From Demequina activiva (GTDB taxonomy: Bacteria; Actinomycetota; Actinomycetes; Actinomycetales; Demequinaceae), in contig NZ_BONR01000002.1 in assembly GCF_016862815.1 (NCBI RefSeq), positions 62,001 to 126,000 of the forward strand: a stretch of DNA of 64,000 nucleotides. Direction: 5' to 3'. Each line of letters opens with the position of its first letter. The stretch's first letter is position 1. Shown here one piece after another: positions 29,975 to 37,698 of the stretch. A program made the position numbers and the translations under genes. A model generated the notes under the pieces. The model was given only the letters and a program-made list of their open reading frames with translations, was not told the origin of the DNA and did not search any database.

Positions 29975-31350
29975 CCGCGCCGAGTCCGATCGACGGGCTG
30001 CGCGTCCTCATCCTCGGCCTGGGCGTCGCTGGGCGCTCGGCGCTCGAGGCCTGCCGCGAGCTGGGAGCCGAGGCCGTCGTCGTCGACCCCGGACAGGCCG
30101 ACGCGGACGCCGCCTCGCTCGACGGCCTCGACCTGGCGAGCTTCGACCTGTGCATGGCCTCTCCCGGCTTCTCGCCGCTGTCGCCCGAGCTGCGCGCGAT
30201 CGAGGCGGCCGGCCTCGAGGTGTGGTCCGAGATGGAGTTCGCCTGGCGCGTGCGCCGCCACGGGATCCCGTGGGTGCTCGTGACGGGCACCAACGGCAAG
30301 ACCACCACCACGCAGATGGTGGGCGCCATCGCCGCCGCCGGCGGTCTCGACGTCGCGACGTGCGGCAACATGGGCATCCCCGTCATCGCGGCGGCGCGAG
30401 AGCAGCACGACCTGGTCGCCGTCGAGATCGCGAGCCTGCAGCTGCACTACACGTCGACGCTGTCGCCGCACGCGGCCGTGTGCCTCAACGCTGACGAGGA
30501 TCACCTGGACTGGCACGGCTCGGTCGAGGCCTACCGCGCGGACAAGGCGCGGGTCTACCGCCACGTCCAGGTCGCCTGCGTGTACGGCGCTCACGACTCC
30601 GTGGTGGAGGCGATGGTCGAGGACGCGGACGTGGTCGAGGGCGCGCGAGCCGTCGGCGTCACGTTGGGCGCTCCGGCCGTCTCCCAGCTGGGCATCGTCG
30701 AGTCCCTGCTCGCGGATCGCGCGTTCCACGAGTCGCGCCGCACCGAGGCGCTCGAGCTGGGCCACGTCAGCGACCTGTCTCACCTGGTCGCGGGAGACGT
30801 GCCGCCGTACCTGCTGTTCAACGCGCTCGCCGCGGCCGCACTGTGCCGGGCGGTGGGCGTCGAGCCGGCGGCGGTCGCTCGTGGACTCGCCTCCTTCTCG
30901 CTGGACGCGCACCGGACCGCGCACGTGCGCGACCTGGGCGGCGTCTCCTTCGTCGACGACTCCAAGGCGACCAACGCGCATGCCGCGATCGCCGCGTTCG
31001 GGGGGCGCGCCCCCTCCTCCGTGGTGTGGATCGCCGGCGGCCAGGCCAAGGGCCAGGAGTTCGACGAGCTGGTGCGCGCCGTGCGCGACCGCGTGCGCGC
31101 GGTGGTGCTCATCGGGGCCGATCCTGAGCCGCTCGCCGGGTCGCTCGCGGGACACGCGGCCGATATCCCCGTGACCCGCATCGAACCGGGCGACACTGTG
31201 ATGGAGCAGGCGGTGCGAGCGGCTCGTGACCTGGCCATGCCAGGCGACACGGTCCTCCTGTCACCCGCCTGCGCTTCGTTCGATCAGTTCCGCAGCTACG
31301 CGGATCGAGGGGACGCCTTCGCGGCAGCGGTGGGGGCGCTGGAGCAGTAA
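29971..31350 (+). CDS. murD: UDP-MurNAc-L-alanine:D-glutamate ligase
   Basis: Adds D-glutamate to UDP-MurNAc-L-Ala. The 459-residue protein starts with a UDP-binding Rossmann domain ([17 protein letters not shown]), then the ATP site [23 protein letters not shown], and a C-terminal domain with [11 protein letters not shown] and [21 protein letters not shown]. Coupled to mraY by a 4-base overlap; ftsW follows after 10 bases. Confidence 0.96.
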
Positions 31351-31360
31351 GGGAGGCGTC

Positions 31361-32578
31361 ATGACGGCCACGGCCCCGCGGCGCACCCAGAATCCCTCGG
31401 CACCGTCCGGCTCGCCGGTCCTGACCTACTACCTGCTCGCCGCGGCCACCGCACTGCTGGTCGTGGTCGGGCTCGCGGTGGTCCTGTCCAGCACGTCCTC
31501 CGACGCGCTCAACCGCGACGGCGGCAACCCCTACTCGCTGTTCCTGATCCAGGCGGCGGCGCTGGGCATCGGCCTGGCGGCGCTGGTGTTCGGCTCGCGC
31601 ATGCCGGTCGCCTTCTGGAAGCGCGTGGCCGCGCCCATCCTCCTCGGCTCGCTGGTGCTGCTGGTGGTCGTGGTGTTCGCGGGAGTGGCCTCCGGCGGCA
31701 ACAAGAACTGGCTCCCCGTGGGCCGGGTGACGTTCCAGCCCTCCGAGGTCGCGAAGCTGGGTCTCGCCCTGTTCCTGGGCGTCGCGCTGTCCGTGGGCCG
31801 GCGCCAGCTCGGCACGCTCAAGGGCCTCCTCGTTCCCGGCGGCGTCGCCGTCGCTGCCGTGCTGGGCCTGGTGCTCGTGGGGCGCGACATGGGCACCGCC
31901 CTGGTGATCGCCCTCATGGCCGCCGCAGCCTATTGGGTGGCCGGCGCTCCGCTGCGCTACTTCGCCGTCGCGGGTGCCGCCGGCGTGGTGGGAATCCTGG
32001 TGCTGCTGAACGACGGCACGTCGCGCAACTCCCGCATCGACGCGTGGCTCAACCCCGAGTCCTGCGACGCGCAGGGCGCGTGCATGCAGACCCTTCACGG
32101 CACGTGGGCGCTGGCCTCCGGCGGACTGTGGGGGCTCGGTCCTGGCATGAGCCGCGAGAAGTGGGGATACCTGCCGGTCGCGGACTCGGACTTCATCTTC
32201 TCGATCATCGGGGAGGAGTACGGGCTCGTCGGCACGCTGCTGATGCTGATCGCGTTCGGCATGATCATCGTGGCCGTGAACCGCCTGGTCACCCGCCACT
32301 CCGACCCGTTCGTGCAGATCGCCGCCGCGGCGATCGGCGCGTGGATCGTCGGCCAGGCCTGCATCAACATCGCAGTCGTCGTGGGGCTCGCGCCCGTCAC
32401 CGGCGTGCCGCTGCCCCTCGTCTCCTCAGGAGGCTCGTCCTTGATCGTGTCTCTGGCTGCCATCGGCGTGCTCATGGCCTTCGCGCGACGTGAGCCAGGG
32501 GCGCACGAGGCGCTCTCGGCACGCCCGTCCGTCATCAAGCGCTCGTTCGCCGTGATCGCGCGGGGACGGCGTGGCTAG
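31361..32578 (+). CDS. ftsW: Septal peptidoglycan glycosyltransferase (SEDS family)
   Basis: Polymerises glycan strands at the septum with FtsI. The 405-residue protein has about ten membrane helices and SEDS motifs including GGNKNWLPVGRVTFQPSEVAKL, GRDMGTALVI, LGPGMSREKWGYLPVADSDFIFSIIGEEYG and GVPLPLVSSGGSS. ATG 31361 has GGGAGG at ideal distance. The last 8 bases overlap the murG start. Confidence 0.95.
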   Translation: MTATAPRRTQNPSAPSGSPVLTYYLLAAATALLVVVGLAVVLSSTSSDALNRDGGNPYSLFLIQAAALGIGLAALVFGSRMPVAFWKRVAAPILLGSLVLLVVVVFAGVASGGNKNWLPVGRVTFQPSEVAKLGLALFLGVALSVGRRQLGTLKGLLVPGGVAVAAVLGLVLVGRDMGTALVIALMAAAAYWVAGAPLRYFAVAGAAGVVGILVLLNDGTSRNSRIDAWLNPESCDAQGACMQTLHGTWALASGGLWGLGPGMSREKWGYLPVADSDFIFSIIGEEYGLVGTLLMLIAFGMIIVAVNRLVTRHSDPFVQIAAAAIGAWIVGQACINIAVVVGLAPVTGVPLPLVSSGGSSLIVSLAAIGVLMAFARREPGAHEALSARPSVIKRSFAVIARGRRG

Positions 32579-33686
32579 CTCCTTCCTGCTCGCCGGCGGC
32601 GGCACTGCCGGCCACGTCAACCCGCTCCTGGCGACGGCATCGGAGCTGTCCTTGCGCGGCCACGACGTCGCCGCGCTCGGCACCGACGAGGGACTCGAGC
32701 GGGACCTGGTGCCTCGCGCCGGCCTGACGCTGCACACCGTCCCCAAGGTGCCCATGCCCCGTCGCCCGTCGGGGGATCTGCTGCGGCTGCCGGGGCGGCT
32801 CAGCGCAGCCATCCGCGCCGCGGAGGACGCGATCGACGCATCGAACGCCCAGGCCGTGGTCGGGTTCGGCGGGTACGTGTCGACGCCCGCGTATCTCGCG
32901 GCGCGGCGTCGCAAGCTGCCCATCATCGTCCACGAGGCGAACGCCAGGCCCGGCGTGGCGAACAGGCTCGGTGCGCGCTTCACCGAGCATGTCGCCATCA
33001 CCTTCGAGGGCACGCCCTTGCGCGGCGGCGTCGTCACCGGGCTGCCGCTGCGTCCCGAGATCGGCGATCTCGCGCAGGTGCTCGCGGATCCCTCGGCAGG
33101 CTCCGAGGCCCGCGCCGCGGCGCGTGCGGTCGCAGGCTGGGAGGCCGATGCGCCGGTGCTGCTGGTGACAGGAGGCTCGCTGGGCGCGGCGAGCCTCAAC
33201 GCGGCGATGGTCGAGGCCGCGCCGCGCCTGGTCGCGCACGGCGTCCATGTGTGGCACCTGACAGGGCAGGGCAAGAGCGAGGAGGCGCGTCGCGTGTTCG
33301 GCGATCTGTCCGCCGCGCACCGGCCGCTGTACCGGGTCGAGGAGTACAGCCACGACATGGCCACCGCGCTCGCGGCCGCGGGTGCCGTCGTGTGCCGTGC
33401 TGGTGCGGCCACGGTGTGCGAGGTCACCGCGCTGGGCGTGCCCGCGATGTACGTGCCGCTGCCTCACGGCAACGGGGAGCAGGCGGACAACGCCCGGCCC
33501 GCGGTGGCCGCTGGCGCCGCGACCATGGTCGAGGACGCGGACCTCACCGCGGCGGCGATCGAGCAGAGCGTCGAGCGCATGCTGCTGGATCCCAAGGCCG
33601 TCACCGCGATGCGCACGGCGGCGGACCGGATCGCGATTCGCGACGGCGCCGCGCGCCTGGCGGACATGATCGAGGGGGCGCTGTGA
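32571..33686 (+). CDS. murG: UDP-GlcNAc:lipid I N-acetylglucosaminyltransferase
   Basis: Makes lipid II at the inner face of the membrane. The 371-residue GT-B protein has the N-terminal GGGTAGHVNPLLA loop, GFGGYVSTPAYLAA, the second glycine-rich loop TGGSLGAASLN and the UDP-GlcNAc site CRAGAATVCEVTALGVPAMYVPLPHG...EQ. GTG 32571 overlaps ftsW by 8 bases and has GGGGA upstream; murC follows as GTGA. Confidence 0.96.
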   Translation: MASSFLLAGGGTAGHVNPLLATASELSLRGHDVAALGTDEGLERDLVPRAGLTLHTVPKVPMPRRPSGDLLRLPGRLSAAIRAAEDAIDASNAQAVVGFGGYVSTPAYLAARRRKLPIIVHEANARPGVANRLGARFTEHVAITFEGTPLRGGVVTGLPLRPEIGDLAQVLADPSAGSEARAAARAVAGWEADAPVLLVTGGSLGAASLNAAMVEAAPRLVAHGVHVWHLTGQGKSEEARRVFGDLSAAHRPLYRVEEYSHDMATALAAAGAVVCRAGAATVCEVTALGVPAMYVPLPHGNGEQADNARPAVAAGAATMVEDADLTAAAIEQSVERMLLDPKAVTAMRTAADRIAIRDGAARLADMIEGAL

Positions 33687-35107
33687 GCGGTCGGATGCAC
33701 TTCATCGGCGTGGGCGGATCAGGCATGTCCGCGGTCGCACGGCTCGTGGCGGCGCGCGGCATCACGGTCACGGGCAGCGACCAGCGCGAGTCGGCGTACT
33801 TCCTGGCGCTGCGCGAGGCCGGGATGGACGTCAGCATCGGCCACGACGCCGCGAACGTGGATGGCGTCGACGCGGTGGTGATCTCCACTGCGGTGCGCGA
33901 GACCAATCCCGAGCTCGCCCGCGCTCGTGAGCTGGGCATCCCGGTGATGCATCGCTCCGAGGCGCTCGTGTACGCCCTCGAGGAGGACCGTCTGGTCGCC
34001 GTGGCGGGCTCGCATGGCAAGACCACCACCTCCGCGATGGTCGCGCACGCGCTGCACGCCGCCGGCGTCGATGCGTCCTTCGCGGTAGGAGCGCGCGTGT
34101 TCGGAGTCGACGGCGCCGTCGCCGGCGGCTACGCGGGCACGGCCGGCATCGGGGTGGTCGAGGCGGACGAATCCGACGGCTCGTTCCTGCGCTACCACCC
34201 CGAGGTGGGGGTGCTGCTGAACATCGAGCCCGATCACCTCGACCACTACGGCACCGAGGCGCGGCTCGAGGAGGCGTTCCTGGAGTTCGCGCTGTCCTGT
34301 CAGGTGCTGGTGGCGTGCGCGGAGGACGCGACGGTGTCCCGCATCGCACAGCAGGCGCGGCGCGCGGGCGTGCGGGTGGTCACCTATGGCCGGGCGGAGG
34401 CGGACGTCGTGGTGACCCCCACCCACCTCTCCCTCCAGAATTTGGCACCATTTTCATCGTCTAGGCGGCTACACGATGAAAATGGTGCCAAATTCACGGA
34501 GCTGGAGGGCCAGGAGCTGCCGCTCGAGGTCCCCGTCCCCGGCGAGCACCAGCGCCTCAACGCCGCGGCCGCGTGGGCGGCAGCGGTCGCGATGGGCGCC
34601 GATGCGCGGGCCGCGGCCGCGTCCTTCTCCGGCTTCGCCGGCACGGGACGGCGGTATCAGCTGCGTGGGGAGGTCGCCGGCGTGCGGGTGGTGGACGACT
34701 ACGCCCACCACCCCACGGAGGTTGCCGCGGTCCTGGCAGCCGCGAGGAGCGCGGGGGTCGAGCGCCTGGTGGTGCTGTTCCAGCCCGCCCTGTTCACCCG
34801 CACCCAGCTGCATGCCCAGAACTTCGCCGACGCCCTGTCCGTGCCGGATGCGGACGTGGTCATCGCCGCCGTCCACGGTGACCGTGAGGACCCCATCGAG
34901 GGCGTCACCTCCCACAGCATCCTCGAGCGCATGAGCGTGCCCGCCGGGTCCTCCGCCCAGGTGGTGGAGGACCTCCGGGAGGCCGCCGCCGTGGCCGCGT
35001 CGCTCGCGAGGCCGGGCGCCCAGGTCATGACCGTGGGCTCCGGCACCGTGACGCTCGCAGCGGACTGGATCCTGGACGCGCTGCGCACGGGGGACGGCGA
35101 TGGCTGA
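33683..35107 (+). CDS. murC: UDP-N-acetylmuramate:L-alanine ligase, with a palindromic insert
   Basis: First Mur ligase, joining L-Ala to UDP-MurNAc. The 474-residue protein has GVGGSGMSAVARL at the N-terminus, ATP motif GSHGKTTTSAM, EADESDGSFL, NIEPDHLDHYG and the C-terminal DDYAHHPTE. Residues 253-271 (NLAPFSSSRRLHDENGAKF) are unlike the usual sequence here: they are encoded by a perfect 23-bp inverted repeat with low GC and codons such as TTT, AAT, GAA and AAA that are rare nearby. The reading frame stays open, so the enzyme is probably still active. GTG start overlaps murG; the last 8 bases overlap ftsQ. Confidence 0.95.
   Translation: MSGRMHFIGVGGSGMSAVARLVAARGITVTGSDQRESAYFLALREAGMDVSIGHDAANVDGVDAVVISTAVRETNPELARARELGIPVMHRSEALVYALEEDRLVAVAGSHGKTTTSAMVAHALHAAGVDASFAVGARVFGVDGAVAGGYAGTAGIGVVEADESDGSFLRYHPEVGVLLNIEPDHLDHYGTEARLEEAFLEFALSCQVLVACAEDATVSRIAQQARRAGVRVVTYGRAEADVVVTPTHLSLQNLAPFSSSRRLHDENGAKFTELEGQELPLEVPVPGEHQRLNAAAAWAAAVAMGADARAAAASFSGFAGTGRRYQLRGEVAGVRVVDDYAHHPTEVAAVLAAARSAGVERLVVLFQPALFTRTQLHAQNFADALSVPDADVVIAAVHGDREDPIEGVTSHSILERMSVPAGSSAQVVEDLREAAAVAASLARPGAQVMTVGSGTVTLAADWILDALRTGDGDG
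34438..34495. repeat. Perfect 23-bp inverted repeat inside murC
   Basis: The arms, 34438-34460 and 34473-34495, are exact reverse complements around a 12-base centre. Arm GC is 9 of 23, far below the surrounding gene. It begins GAATTTGGCACC and reads in frame through murC. It resembles palindromic elements that insert into genes without breaking the frame; no second copy was seen in this window. Confidence 0.9.
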
Positions 35108-36251
35108 GCCGCGCCGCCCTCAGAGCCCGGTGCGGCCCGCCTCGCCGCGCAAGCCTCGTCCCACTGCGGATGCTCCGGCATCCGCGCGGTCGGCCTCGGC
35201 GCCGCGCACGGGCACGGTGCGCACAGGCTCGGGACGCGCCGGCGCCCCCCGCGCGGACAGGCCCCGCTCCGGCACCGTTCGCCGATCGGCTGCCGCGCCC
35301 GCGTCCTCCGCACGCTCGACCCGCACGGCACCCTCCGCCGCATCGGCGCCCCGCACGTCCAGCGCACCGGTGATCGGGCCGCTCGGCCGCGTGATCGCGA
35401 AGGTCACGCGCAGCGTGCCTATCGCCGGCGCATCGGAGCGCGCCCCGGCGTCGGTCGCGCCGCCGCGCAGCGGCACCCTGGCGACGCCGTGGGCCAAGGT
35501 GAGCGCCGCATCGTCCACCGTGACCACGCGCATGGAGGAGCGGCTGCGCGAGCGCCGCTCCGCGCACCGGCGCCTGCTCACCGGCCGGTGGGTCACGCGG
35601 CTGCTCATCGCCGGCGCGGGGGCGGTGGGCGTCTGGCTGCTCCTGCTGTCGCCCGTGTTCGCGCTCGAGCAGGACAACGTCGAGGCCAGCGGCTTCGGCA
35701 CCGTGGTCGATCCCGCGACCGTCGCCGGCATCGTGGCGCAGCAGGACGGCACGTCGCTGGTGCTGGTCAACACGGGCCACATCGAGGATCAGCTCGAGGC
35801 GCTGGTGGGAGTGCGCGACGCGGTGGTGGAGCGGGTGTGGCCGGCGGGGCTGAGGGTCACGCTGACCTCCGCGGAGCCGGTCGCTGCGATCCCGCACGGA
35901 GAGACCTTCGTGCTCTTGGACGAGGACGGCGTGCAGGTGGACGAGGCCGCCGAGGCGCCGGCTCACCTGCCGGTGGTGAACGTGCCTCTGGAGGCGGAGA
36001 ACACGCGCATCCTGGACGGGGTGATCGCGGTCATCGACCAGATGCCGGTCGAGCTGCGCGAGCGCGTGCAGGATGTCGAGGCGACCACCGAGGACTCGAT
36101 CCACTTCGTGCTGCGCGACGGCCCGCGGGTGGAGTGGGGGAGCGCGGAGGAGTCCGCACTCAAGGCCGAGGTGCTCGCGGTGCTGCTGCAGGAGGCCAGC
36201 GACGCCGAGCTGATCGACGTCTCCGCGCCAACGCTGCCCACCGTGGTGTGA
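35100..36251 (+). CDS. ftsQ: Cell division protein FtsQ
   Basis: Septum assembly protein of 383 residues. A long disordered tail of about 155 residues, made of Ala, Pro, Ser and Arg, precedes one membrane helix (about 167-188, VTRLLIAGAGAVGVWLLLLSPVFAL core) and the external POTRA domain (VEASGFGTVVDPATVAGI) plus FtsQ beta domain. The POTRA start after the helix and the position before ftsZ support the call. Tail length is greater than in E. coli but usual in actinobacteria. ATG overlaps the murC end by 8 bases. It is the last gene of the tightly coupled block. Confidence 0.92.
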   Translation: MAEPRRPQSPVRPASPRKPRPTADAPASARSASAPRTGTVRTGSGRAGAPRADRPRSGTVRRSAAAPASSARSTRTAPSAASAPRTSSAPVIGPLGRVIAKVTRSVPIAGASERAPASVAPPRSGTLATPWAKVSAASSTVTTRMEERLRERRSAHRRLLTGRWVTRLLIAGAGAVGVWLLLLSPVFALEQDNVEASGFGTVVDPATVAGIVAQQDGTSLVLVNTGHIEDQLEALVGVRDAVVERVWPAGLRVTLTSAEPVAAIPHGETFVLLDEDGVQVDEAAEAPAHLPVVNVPLEAENTRILDGVIAVIDQMPVELRERVQDVEATTEDSIHFVLRDGPRVEWGSAEESALKAEVLAVLLQEASDAELIDVSAPTLPTVV

Positions 36252-36276
36252 CGGGATCGCGCGCCGGGACCGACCG

Positions 36277-36368
36277 CTCACCACACGCGCGTGACGGGTG
36301 GTGCCCGTGTGGCGCCAGGGGATTCACACGGGTGCCTCGTGTCCCAGGCGCCCCACCTGTGTGGTGAG
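36277..36368. repeat. Intergenic palindromic element, family A copy 1
   Basis: Ends are CTCACCACAC (36277-36286) and GTGTGGTGAG (36359-36368), a perfect 10-bp inverted repeat; inside the left end is GTGACGGGTGGTGCC, shared with copy 4. Located between ftsQ and ftsZ. Confidence 0.75.
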
Positions 36369-36378
36369 AGGCCGGGCT

Positions 36379-36406
36379 CGCGGCGCTGCCGAGCTTCTGC
36401 GCCGCG
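36379..36406. other. Hairpin between ftsQ and ftsZ
   Basis: CGCGGCGC and GCGCCGCG form a perfect 8-bp stem with a 12-base loop, followed by ATTATCCC. It may end transcription of the mur-fts block before the separate ftsZ promoter. Confidence 0.5.
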
Positions 36407-36476
36407 ATTATCCCGCGACACGCGCGCGCCTCACCGGCCGATGCGCGTGGCGGCCGTACCTTCTCAGTGGAAGCAG

Positions 36477-36508
36477 TTGACATAACTATAACCTTCAACT
36501 TGAAGGTT
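36477..36508 (+). promoter_or_regulatory. ftsZ promoter region with a 19-base palindrome
   Basis: A consensus -35 TTGACA (36477-36482) is followed by the palindrome AACCTTCAACTTGAAGGTT (36490-36508; 9-bp arms around one C), the only AT-rich patch nearby. No -10 with 17-base spacing is clear, and TATAAC lies only 4 bases after TTGACA. The palindrome is a candidate operator for ftsZ. Confidence 0.55.
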
Positions 36509-36525
36509 AAGGTTGGGAGAGGGCC

Positions 36526-37698
36526 ATGGCCGCACCGCAGAACTACATCACCGCCATCAAGGTCGTCGGCGTGGGCGGCGGCGGCGTGAACGCCGTCAAC
36601 CGCATGATCGACGTGGGGCTCAAGGGCGCCGAGTTCATCGCCATCAACACCGACGCGCAGGCGCTGCTCATGTCCGATGCGGACGTGAAGCTGGACATCG
36701 GCCGCGAGCTCACGCGCGGGCTGGGAGCCGGCGCCGACCCCGAGGTCGGGCGCCAGGCGGCGCAGGACCACGAGGACGAGATCGCGGAGGCCCTCAAGGG
36801 CTCGGACATGGTCTTCGTGACCGCGGGCGAGGGCGGCGGCACCGGCACCGGTGGCGCACCCGTCGTGGCACGCATCGCGCGCGGACTGGGCGCACTCACC
36901 GTGGGCGTCGTGACCCGCCCGTTCGGCTTCGAGGGCCGCCGCCGTGCGGACCAGGCCGACGCCGGTATCCAGACGCTGCGCGAGGAGGTCGACACCCTCA
37001 TCGTCATCCCGAACGACCGTCTGCTCGACATCCAGGACGCGGAGCTGTCCGTGCTGGGAGCCTTCGCCGCGGCGGACCAGGTGCTCCAGGGCGGCGTCCA
37101 GGGCATCACCGACCTCATCACCACGCCGGGCCTCATCAACGTCGACTTCAACGACGTGAAGTCCGTCATGCAGGGTGCCGGCACCGCGCTCATGGGCGTC
37201 AGCTCGTCGCGCGGCGAGTCGCGCGCGCTCGAGGCCGCCGAGGGCGCGATCTCCTCGCCGCTGCTCGAGGCCTCGATCGAGGGCGCCCACGGCGTGCTGC
37301 TGTCGATCGCCGGCGGCTCGAACCTGGGCATCAAGGAGGTCGAGACGGCCGCCCGCCTGGTGCGCGAGGCCGCGCACGCCGAGGCGAACATCATCTTCGG
37401 CACCGTGATCGACGACTCGCTGGGCGACGAGCTGCGGATCACCGTGATCGCCGCCGGATTCGACGGCGGCTCTCCCACCGTGCGCAAGCACACCGGTGCG
37501 CTCGGACAGATCGACGGCGCCAAGGCCACCCCGACCGCACAGGAGCAGGAGCCGCTCAAGGCTCCCGTCGAGGAGTCCTCCGCGCCCGTGCCGCAGGCGA
37601 TCGACGCGGACGAGCCAGCGCCGGAGACGGACGCGATCGAGGTCACGGCCGTGCGCACCGACTCGGAGGCGCTCGACGTCCCCGAGTTCCTCCGGTAG
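36526..37698 (+). CDS. ftsZ: Cell division GTPase FtsZ
   Basis: Tubulin-like GTPase that forms the Z-ring. The 390-residue protein has the signature [13 protein letters not shown] (about residues 104-116), the T7 synergy loop [11 protein letters not shown], and after a disordered acidic linker the C-terminal peptide LDVPEFLR that binds SepF and other partners. ATG 36526 follows GGGAGAGGG. It has its own upstream control region rather than tight coupling to ftsQ. There is no ftsA, as expected in actinobacteria, where SepF anchors the ring. Confidence 0.98.

Follow-up and report, generated by a model that had tools for sequence, protein, structure and literature searches.

Among the described bacterial repeats, REPIN/RAYT systems (doublets of repetitive extragenic palindromic, REP, sequences and REP-associated tyrosine transposases) and the palindromic elements of Rickettsia, found in frame within genes, come closest to the locus considered here. 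Two proteins are also relevant: the antitoxin AbiEi, which binds two inverted repeats in its own promoter (11 bp, N27, 11 bp; PMC3985639, in the excerpts available), and the homing endonuclease I-Bth0305I, which the accessible part of PMC3943268 describes as a dimer on a target of nearly 60 bp. Here, we describe a 58-bp palindrome lying in frame within murC of the actinobacterium Demequina activiva, in a 64,000-nucleotide stretch of contig NZ_BONR01000002.1 (positions 62,001 to 126,000; hereafter the window), together with the dispersed repeat family to which it belongs and a nuclease gene bracketed by two copies of the ends of that family. We find it somewhat more probable than its opposite that the murC palindrome is a non-autonomous short form of a family belonging to this gene, which encodes an AbiEi-like part and an EDxHD nuclease, in a REPIN/RAYT-like system driven by a homing-type nuclease. 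The features of the murC locus, in window coordinates, are as follows.

33683..35107, + strand: murC, UDP-N-acetylmuramate--L-alanine ligase, the host gene (open reading frame and Pfam)
34422..34436, + strand: pyrimidine-rich collar left of the palindrome, seen beside most copies
34438..34495, no strand assigned: short form of the repeat family, 58 bp, with two arms and a short centre; codons 253-271, in frame
34438..34460, + strand: left arm, exact
34443..34450, + strand: core P1 (TGGNNCCA, where NN = CA in murC), presumed to be part of a protein-binding site
34473..34495, - strand: right arm, exact reverse complement of the left arm
34483..34490, - strand: second core P1, exactly 40 bp away from the first

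The initial annotation had taken this palindrome for either a small mobile element or an inverted duplication, tolerated in frame in murC, and further copies in the genome support a dispersed element. Indeed, a 21-base arm occurs 37 times at no more than three mismatches in the 2.47-Mb D. activiva genome, far above chance since the reversed control pattern gave no occurrence, and a 91-bp query from the murC element gave 56 matches. We count 19 elements and one solitary weaker arm (C1:696435): five 58-bp short forms (murC, L011, L021, L023, L025), 11 longer copies of 147-263 bp, two one-ended copies (L018, L022) and one gene-bearing copy of 1,125 bp (L017). Most copies, 16 of the 19, are nevertheless extragenic, and two were placed within genes. 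The longer copies have nested ends, in which the outer arm is followed by a second inverted module and often by a GGCCGATGC/GCATCGGCC pair, around a variable filling; the middle-sized ones have the same ends as the gene-bearing copy without its gene, and the short form is little beyond two ends facing each other. Among the 17 two-ended copies, most have collars outside the ends, pyrimidine-rich on the left and purine-rich on the right, the right collar being weak at murC. The murC arm used as query against 29 genomes (D. activiva and 28 relatives) matched in D. activiva alone, and the exact arm had no match in 84,980 species genomes, a set from which D. activiva itself was possibly left out. 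The GGCCGATGC/GCATCGGCC sequence, frequently arranged as an inverted pair, is found midway through long forms and also in further gaps across several Demequina genomes (L016, L020, L118, L188-L192, L267), and is perhaps a separate intergenic signal.

The gene in the 1,125-bp copy, located in the gap between pheA and dagK, encodes an AbiEi-like part fused to a nuclease domain of the Vsr/I-Bth0305I (EDxHD) type. The domain has the EDxHD catalytic fold and invariant acidic and histidine residues, and the product is probably a DNA-cutting enzyme; Pfam labels the family DUF559 (unknown function) or MTES_1575 (putative nuclease), and NCBIfam assigned no family to three of the nucleases. Filled and empty sites both exist among relatives: of 30 pheA loci, seven contain the nuclease between pheA and dagK, in 19 the two genes are neighbours without it (28-510 bp) and in the remaining four dagK is out of reach and the nuclease is not there. 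In the genome G015 (L091/L285), the only such case among the carriers, the nuclease gene is reversed with respect to its neighbours, an arrangement that an inversion of the segment between the two ends would produce.

All 41 genomes searched for MurC have it, and among the 30 loci aligned an extra stretch is present at the murC site in five: D. activiva, G039, G041, G043 and G015. In each of the four sister species this stretch is a palindrome with other arms, those of G041 being of two different types. The element was thus not a recent arrival in D. activiva, a point absent from the initial annotation. The sister arms at the murC site are akin to those beside the nuclease gene of the same species; in G043, G015 and G041 the nuclease orthologue occupies the pheA-dagK gap and is bracketed by inverted copies of arms resembling the species' own, and in G039 one flank of the gene is clear and the other altered. 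A degenerate sister-type core, searched on both strands against a reversed control, was abundant in these carriers (161 matches against 4 in G039, 51 against 5 in G041, 31 against 5 in G043, 28 against 1 in G015) and not in non-carriers (3 against 11 in G044, 6 against 12 in G014, 2 against 5 in G033, 5 against 6 in G049). This pattern does not cover the arm types of D. activiva, G046 and G008, where the counts were 10 against 4, 9 against 8 and 6 against 9, respectively. With queries of their own types, the G046 arm gave at least 51 matches in G046 and at least 55 in G008 (40 candidates scored in each) and none in six other genomes, including G010, G030, G044 and G014, and the G015 query matched 43 times in G015 itself, 26 times in G039, three times in G043, once in G041 and never in G044 or G014. 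Altogether, such repeats are present in seven of seven nuclease carriers, and these arm types do not rise above control in any of the six non-carriers tested (G044, G014, G033, G049, G010, G030), which possess other DUF559 genes.

The arms change together within a species. Sites were paired by gene (murC, nuclease) or by their flanks, with one arm per element; the comparison covers 14 sites, 39 arms and six species, s11, s19, s23 and the G041 member of s16 having been removed or re-placed and the one-sided s22 and s237 left out. Arm likeness was 0.88 for the 134 pairs taken from different sites in a single species, 0.63 for the 43 pairs that share a site but not a species and 0.64 for the 564 pairs that share neither, and none of 2000 shuffles reached the within-species excess. 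For 38 of the 39 arms, ties included, the nearest arm at another site came from the same species; for five of the 39, the best seed was that of another species. One site shared by three species holds three arm types, two in the long form and one in the short. The core itself is kept, TGGNNCCA being exact in 34 of the 39 arms across the six species, half of the core having been required when arms were picked. Pairing of one half with the other over 30 positions came to 23.7 within an element, 23.0 across elements of a species and 18.2 across species. The distance from core to core in short forms is exactly 40 bp in 50 cases (46 of 83 loci, five species), and no other spacing below 100 occurs more than twice; within the window, cores at this distance occur in murC alone. 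Tandem arrays of at least three cores at 40-bp steps were also seen in G041 and G039 (L204, L259, L265).

At murC itself, the two 23-bp arms are, as had been read from the sequence, perfectly complementary when reversed around a 12-base centre, and a repeat search gave longer arms of 27 nt, at 96%, separated by 4 nt. The low GC content was likewise confirmed (9 of 23 in the arm; 0.45 across the 58 bp, compared with 0.74 in flanking sequence), as was the position at codons 253-271, counted from the GTG start at 33683 of an open reading frame of 474 codons plus stop, whose product matches Mur_ligase, Mur_ligase_M and Mur_ligase_C in Pfam. The extra stretch, for which the initial annotation had asked whether 14-19 residues were added, is larger than that: 144 nt separate the conserved flanks, against 75 nt in three palindrome-free relatives, so that 23 codons are extra and the added stretch exceeds the 58 bp. 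A second copy (L023) lies in frame within a GT4 glycosyltransferase gene, where its peptide QNLAPFSSSRALDDENGAKF is nearly identical to QNLAPFSSSRRLHDENGAKF of the MurC element; at the G039 locus, where the element is missing, the corresponding flanks are 31 bp apart instead of 82 bp, which amounts to 17 codons. In murC and in this one glycosyltransferase, the element is where 17-23 extra residues are tolerated. The letters NGAKF, which the initial annotation had called family-like, do not represent a MurC-family motif and are encoded by the element, since the unrelated glycosyltransferase has the same letters and sister MurCs differ there. A weak local alignment with the solved MurC 7bva and the MurC alignment suggest that the insert sits in a variable stretch; a single-sequence structure model of MurC reached a pLDDT (predicted local distance difference test) of 40.7 and was not used. 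Around murC, positions 31226-37698 show what we take to be an ordinary cell-division and cell-wall gene order, with an ftsW-like open reading frame, murG, murC, and ftsQ-like and ftsZ-like genes, the names other than murC being our presumption.

How a nuclease could hold such a family together may be pictured as follows. A dimer would recognise paired TGGNNCCA cores 40 bp apart, a proposal that the repeat geometry of AbiEi and the dimerisation of I-Bth0305I would fit, and would cut or nick there; repair from other copies would then spread the element to new places and overwrite old copies, and the copies of a genome would thereby track the specificity of its resident nuclease. Cutting, copying and conversion by the enzyme are what we infer from these patterns, and the system might be either selfish or domesticated. 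Several observations weigh against this reading. Most sites were found with arm-like queries, and arms were chosen by their likeness to one of six seeds. G041, in which most sampled arms are TGGGCCCA, keeps a copy with (T/C)GGATCCA-type arms (L211, G041:C2:1089000-1093000, 789-911), which is likely a relic of an earlier arm type. Finally, G049, without a pheA-dagK nuclease, has at least one clean short form (L322, G049:C10:149600-153700, near 2030-2105), with TGGATCCA cores 40 bp apart and an arm of its own type in which 28 of 30 positions are paired. This pair accounts for two of the five core matches of G049, its inner arm TTTTCATGC resembles the inner arm TTTTCATCG of D. activiva, and its flanks had no match among 98 element loci compared; a 398,862-b sample of G049 yielded this one short form only, and the reversed control none. 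Because of this copy, the result in the six non-carriers means no excess of these arm types, not absence of this kind of repeat. In a MurC tree computed without the insert, G015 falls with G049 and G033 and not with the remaining four bearers of the palindrome; its nuclease, by contrast, clusters with the nucleases of those four (support 99). Horizontal transfer may account for this discordance, as may an older presence followed by losses, which the G049 copy fits.

Of the rival explanations, the one to be taken most seriously, albeit unlikely, is that the nuclease merely binds its own flanking palindromes for self-regulation, as AbiEi does, the dispersed copies being sites or decoys retained because they serve the host, for instance by marking gene ends, protecting transcripts or organising the chromosome; uniform arms would then reflect selection following a changing DNA-binding protein rather than copying. 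The promoter geometry of AbiEi (PMC3985639, as excerpted) is close to the 40-bp spacing, and for 12 of the 16 two-ended D. activiva copies other than murC, an open reading frame pointing toward the copy ends no more than 60 b away. However, mere binding sites leave unexplained why there is a nuclease domain whose acidic and histidine residues are invariant, why the nested ends of the gene-bearing copy recur in long forms, why copies lie in frame in two genes, and why one site can hold the short form in one species and the long form in another. An enzyme of defence or of a restriction-like kind, for which the palindromes would be self-recognition or recruitment sites, seems quite improbable: the gene stands between pheA and dagK, with no partner gene observed inside the element. 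We give still less credence to an ordinary miniature inverted-repeat transposable element (MITE) moved by a DDE transposase encoded elsewhere, with the nuclease gene as a passenger between two ends. Terminal inverted repeats and gene-free internal deletions are MITE-like, and the G049 copy would suit another helper; but no direct repeat of at least 5 bp, as a target-site duplication would leave, is common to more than one of the 17 two-ended copies (offset pairs 0-24, the true boundary being uncertain), the same gene family is flanked by unrelated palindromes in many species, and three of the three gene-flank palindrome types queried had more copies, which a passenger would not repeat. That the elements are intrinsic terminators or other structured host RNAs, alike by coincidence, is hard to credit: the hairpins are strong and many follow stop codons, but two copies lie inside coding frames, no Rfam family reached the gathering score in nine loci, microRNA-type matches in the window were far below threshold, and the species-wide arm likeness and the link to the nuclease would go unexplained. 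A chance in-place inverted duplication in murC, the initial annotation's other proposal, is ruled out for practical purposes by the 18 other copies in the genome and by the palindromes that four sister species have at this position.

The association of nuclease genes and palindromes extends beyond this family. Upstream and reverse-complemented downstream flanks were aligned for 40 DUF559 genes hand-picked from the matches listed, 37 of them outside D. activiva; 23 of the 40 scored at least 50, a score reached by none of 500 random window stretches and by none of 114 murC-locus stretches. A score of at least 40 was reached by 25 of the 40 genes, again by none of the 500 random stretches, and by seven of the 114 murC-locus stretches, where some of the loci hold the murC palindrome. 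Across the phylum, the nuclease family matched in 64 of 198 genomes sampled; 26 of the 30 loci obtained had usable flanks, and six of these scored at least 40 and five of these at least 50, the D. activiva locus included, against 1 of 44 controls at 40 or more. Flanks of other nuclease genes, used as queries, revealed further copies in three of three cases (G046, the second D. activiva DUF559 gene and G065). The second D. activiva gene (L099, G000:C1:127004-129500) has its own inverted repeats, unrelated to the murC family, with single copies at four more sites (L200-L203), the weak L203 not being confirmed on reading; the flank from G065, of a different family, matched 32 times over 17 sites, which include both flanks of the gene itself, and had no match in four other genomes. 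In other actinobacterial families, DUF559 genes with long inverted-repeat flanks of quite different sequence were also seen (L159, L181, L185), two with tandem units. It is possible, although we regard it as a little more doubtful than probable, that Actinomycetota contain an undescribed class of selfish systems, in which EDxHD/AbiEi-type nucleases own dispersed palindromes that are spread and kept in step with changing specificity by cutting and homologous repair, including at shared sites and in essential genes. In the openly licensed PubMed Central literature, partly judged by titles, we found no report tying DUF559 or AbiEi/Vsr-like nucleases to such repeats, and nothing on REPIN/RAYT in Actinobacteria. 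If such a class exists, a large family (DUF559/MTES_1575) would gain a function, the REP-like repeats of the phylum would gain an agent, and a natural species series of nuclease-target pairs would be at hand for a direct test of the co-evolution of an enzyme and its genome-wide targets.

Among known systems, REPIN/RAYT, as portrayed in the available part of PMC3116915, is alike in its divergent nuclease-type genes flanked by palindromes, in its dispersed inverted palindrome doublets, which in Demequina have a fixed 40-bp spacing, and in its lineage-specific and mostly extragenic palindromes, with distinct types in a genome, each next to a gene of its own. The Demequina family differs in that the gene between its repeats combines a Vsr/EDxHD fold with an AbiEi-like part and is not an HUH/Y1 tyrosine transposase (a RAYT elsewhere in the genome was not searched for), that gene-bearing and gene-free copies have whole ends in common, nested modules included, and that two copies lie in frame inside genes. 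Because its enzyme is of another fold, it is not a RAYT system, though it would work like one. Unlike homing endonucleases of the I-Bth0305I type, the Demequina nuclease stands outside introns, is joined to an AbiEi-like part and comes with a dispersed palindrome family; unlike the antitoxin AbiEi or Rv2827c, its AbiEi-like part is fused to a nuclease domain, with no AbiEii toxin gene seen alongside it between pheA and dagK. The comparison with the Rickettsia palindromic elements, drawn at the outset from the murC sequence, holds as an analogy: in both, a short palindrome lies in frame in unrelated genes and encodes a common peptide (PMC10969869, in the passages available), here a nearly identical one in two unrelated proteins. 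The Demequina short form is about 58 bp rather than about 150 bp, and its family is mostly extragenic and linked to a nuclease. For in-frame insertion the Rickettsia elements come closest, and beside them murC is a further instance of an in-frame palindrome kept in an essential gene.
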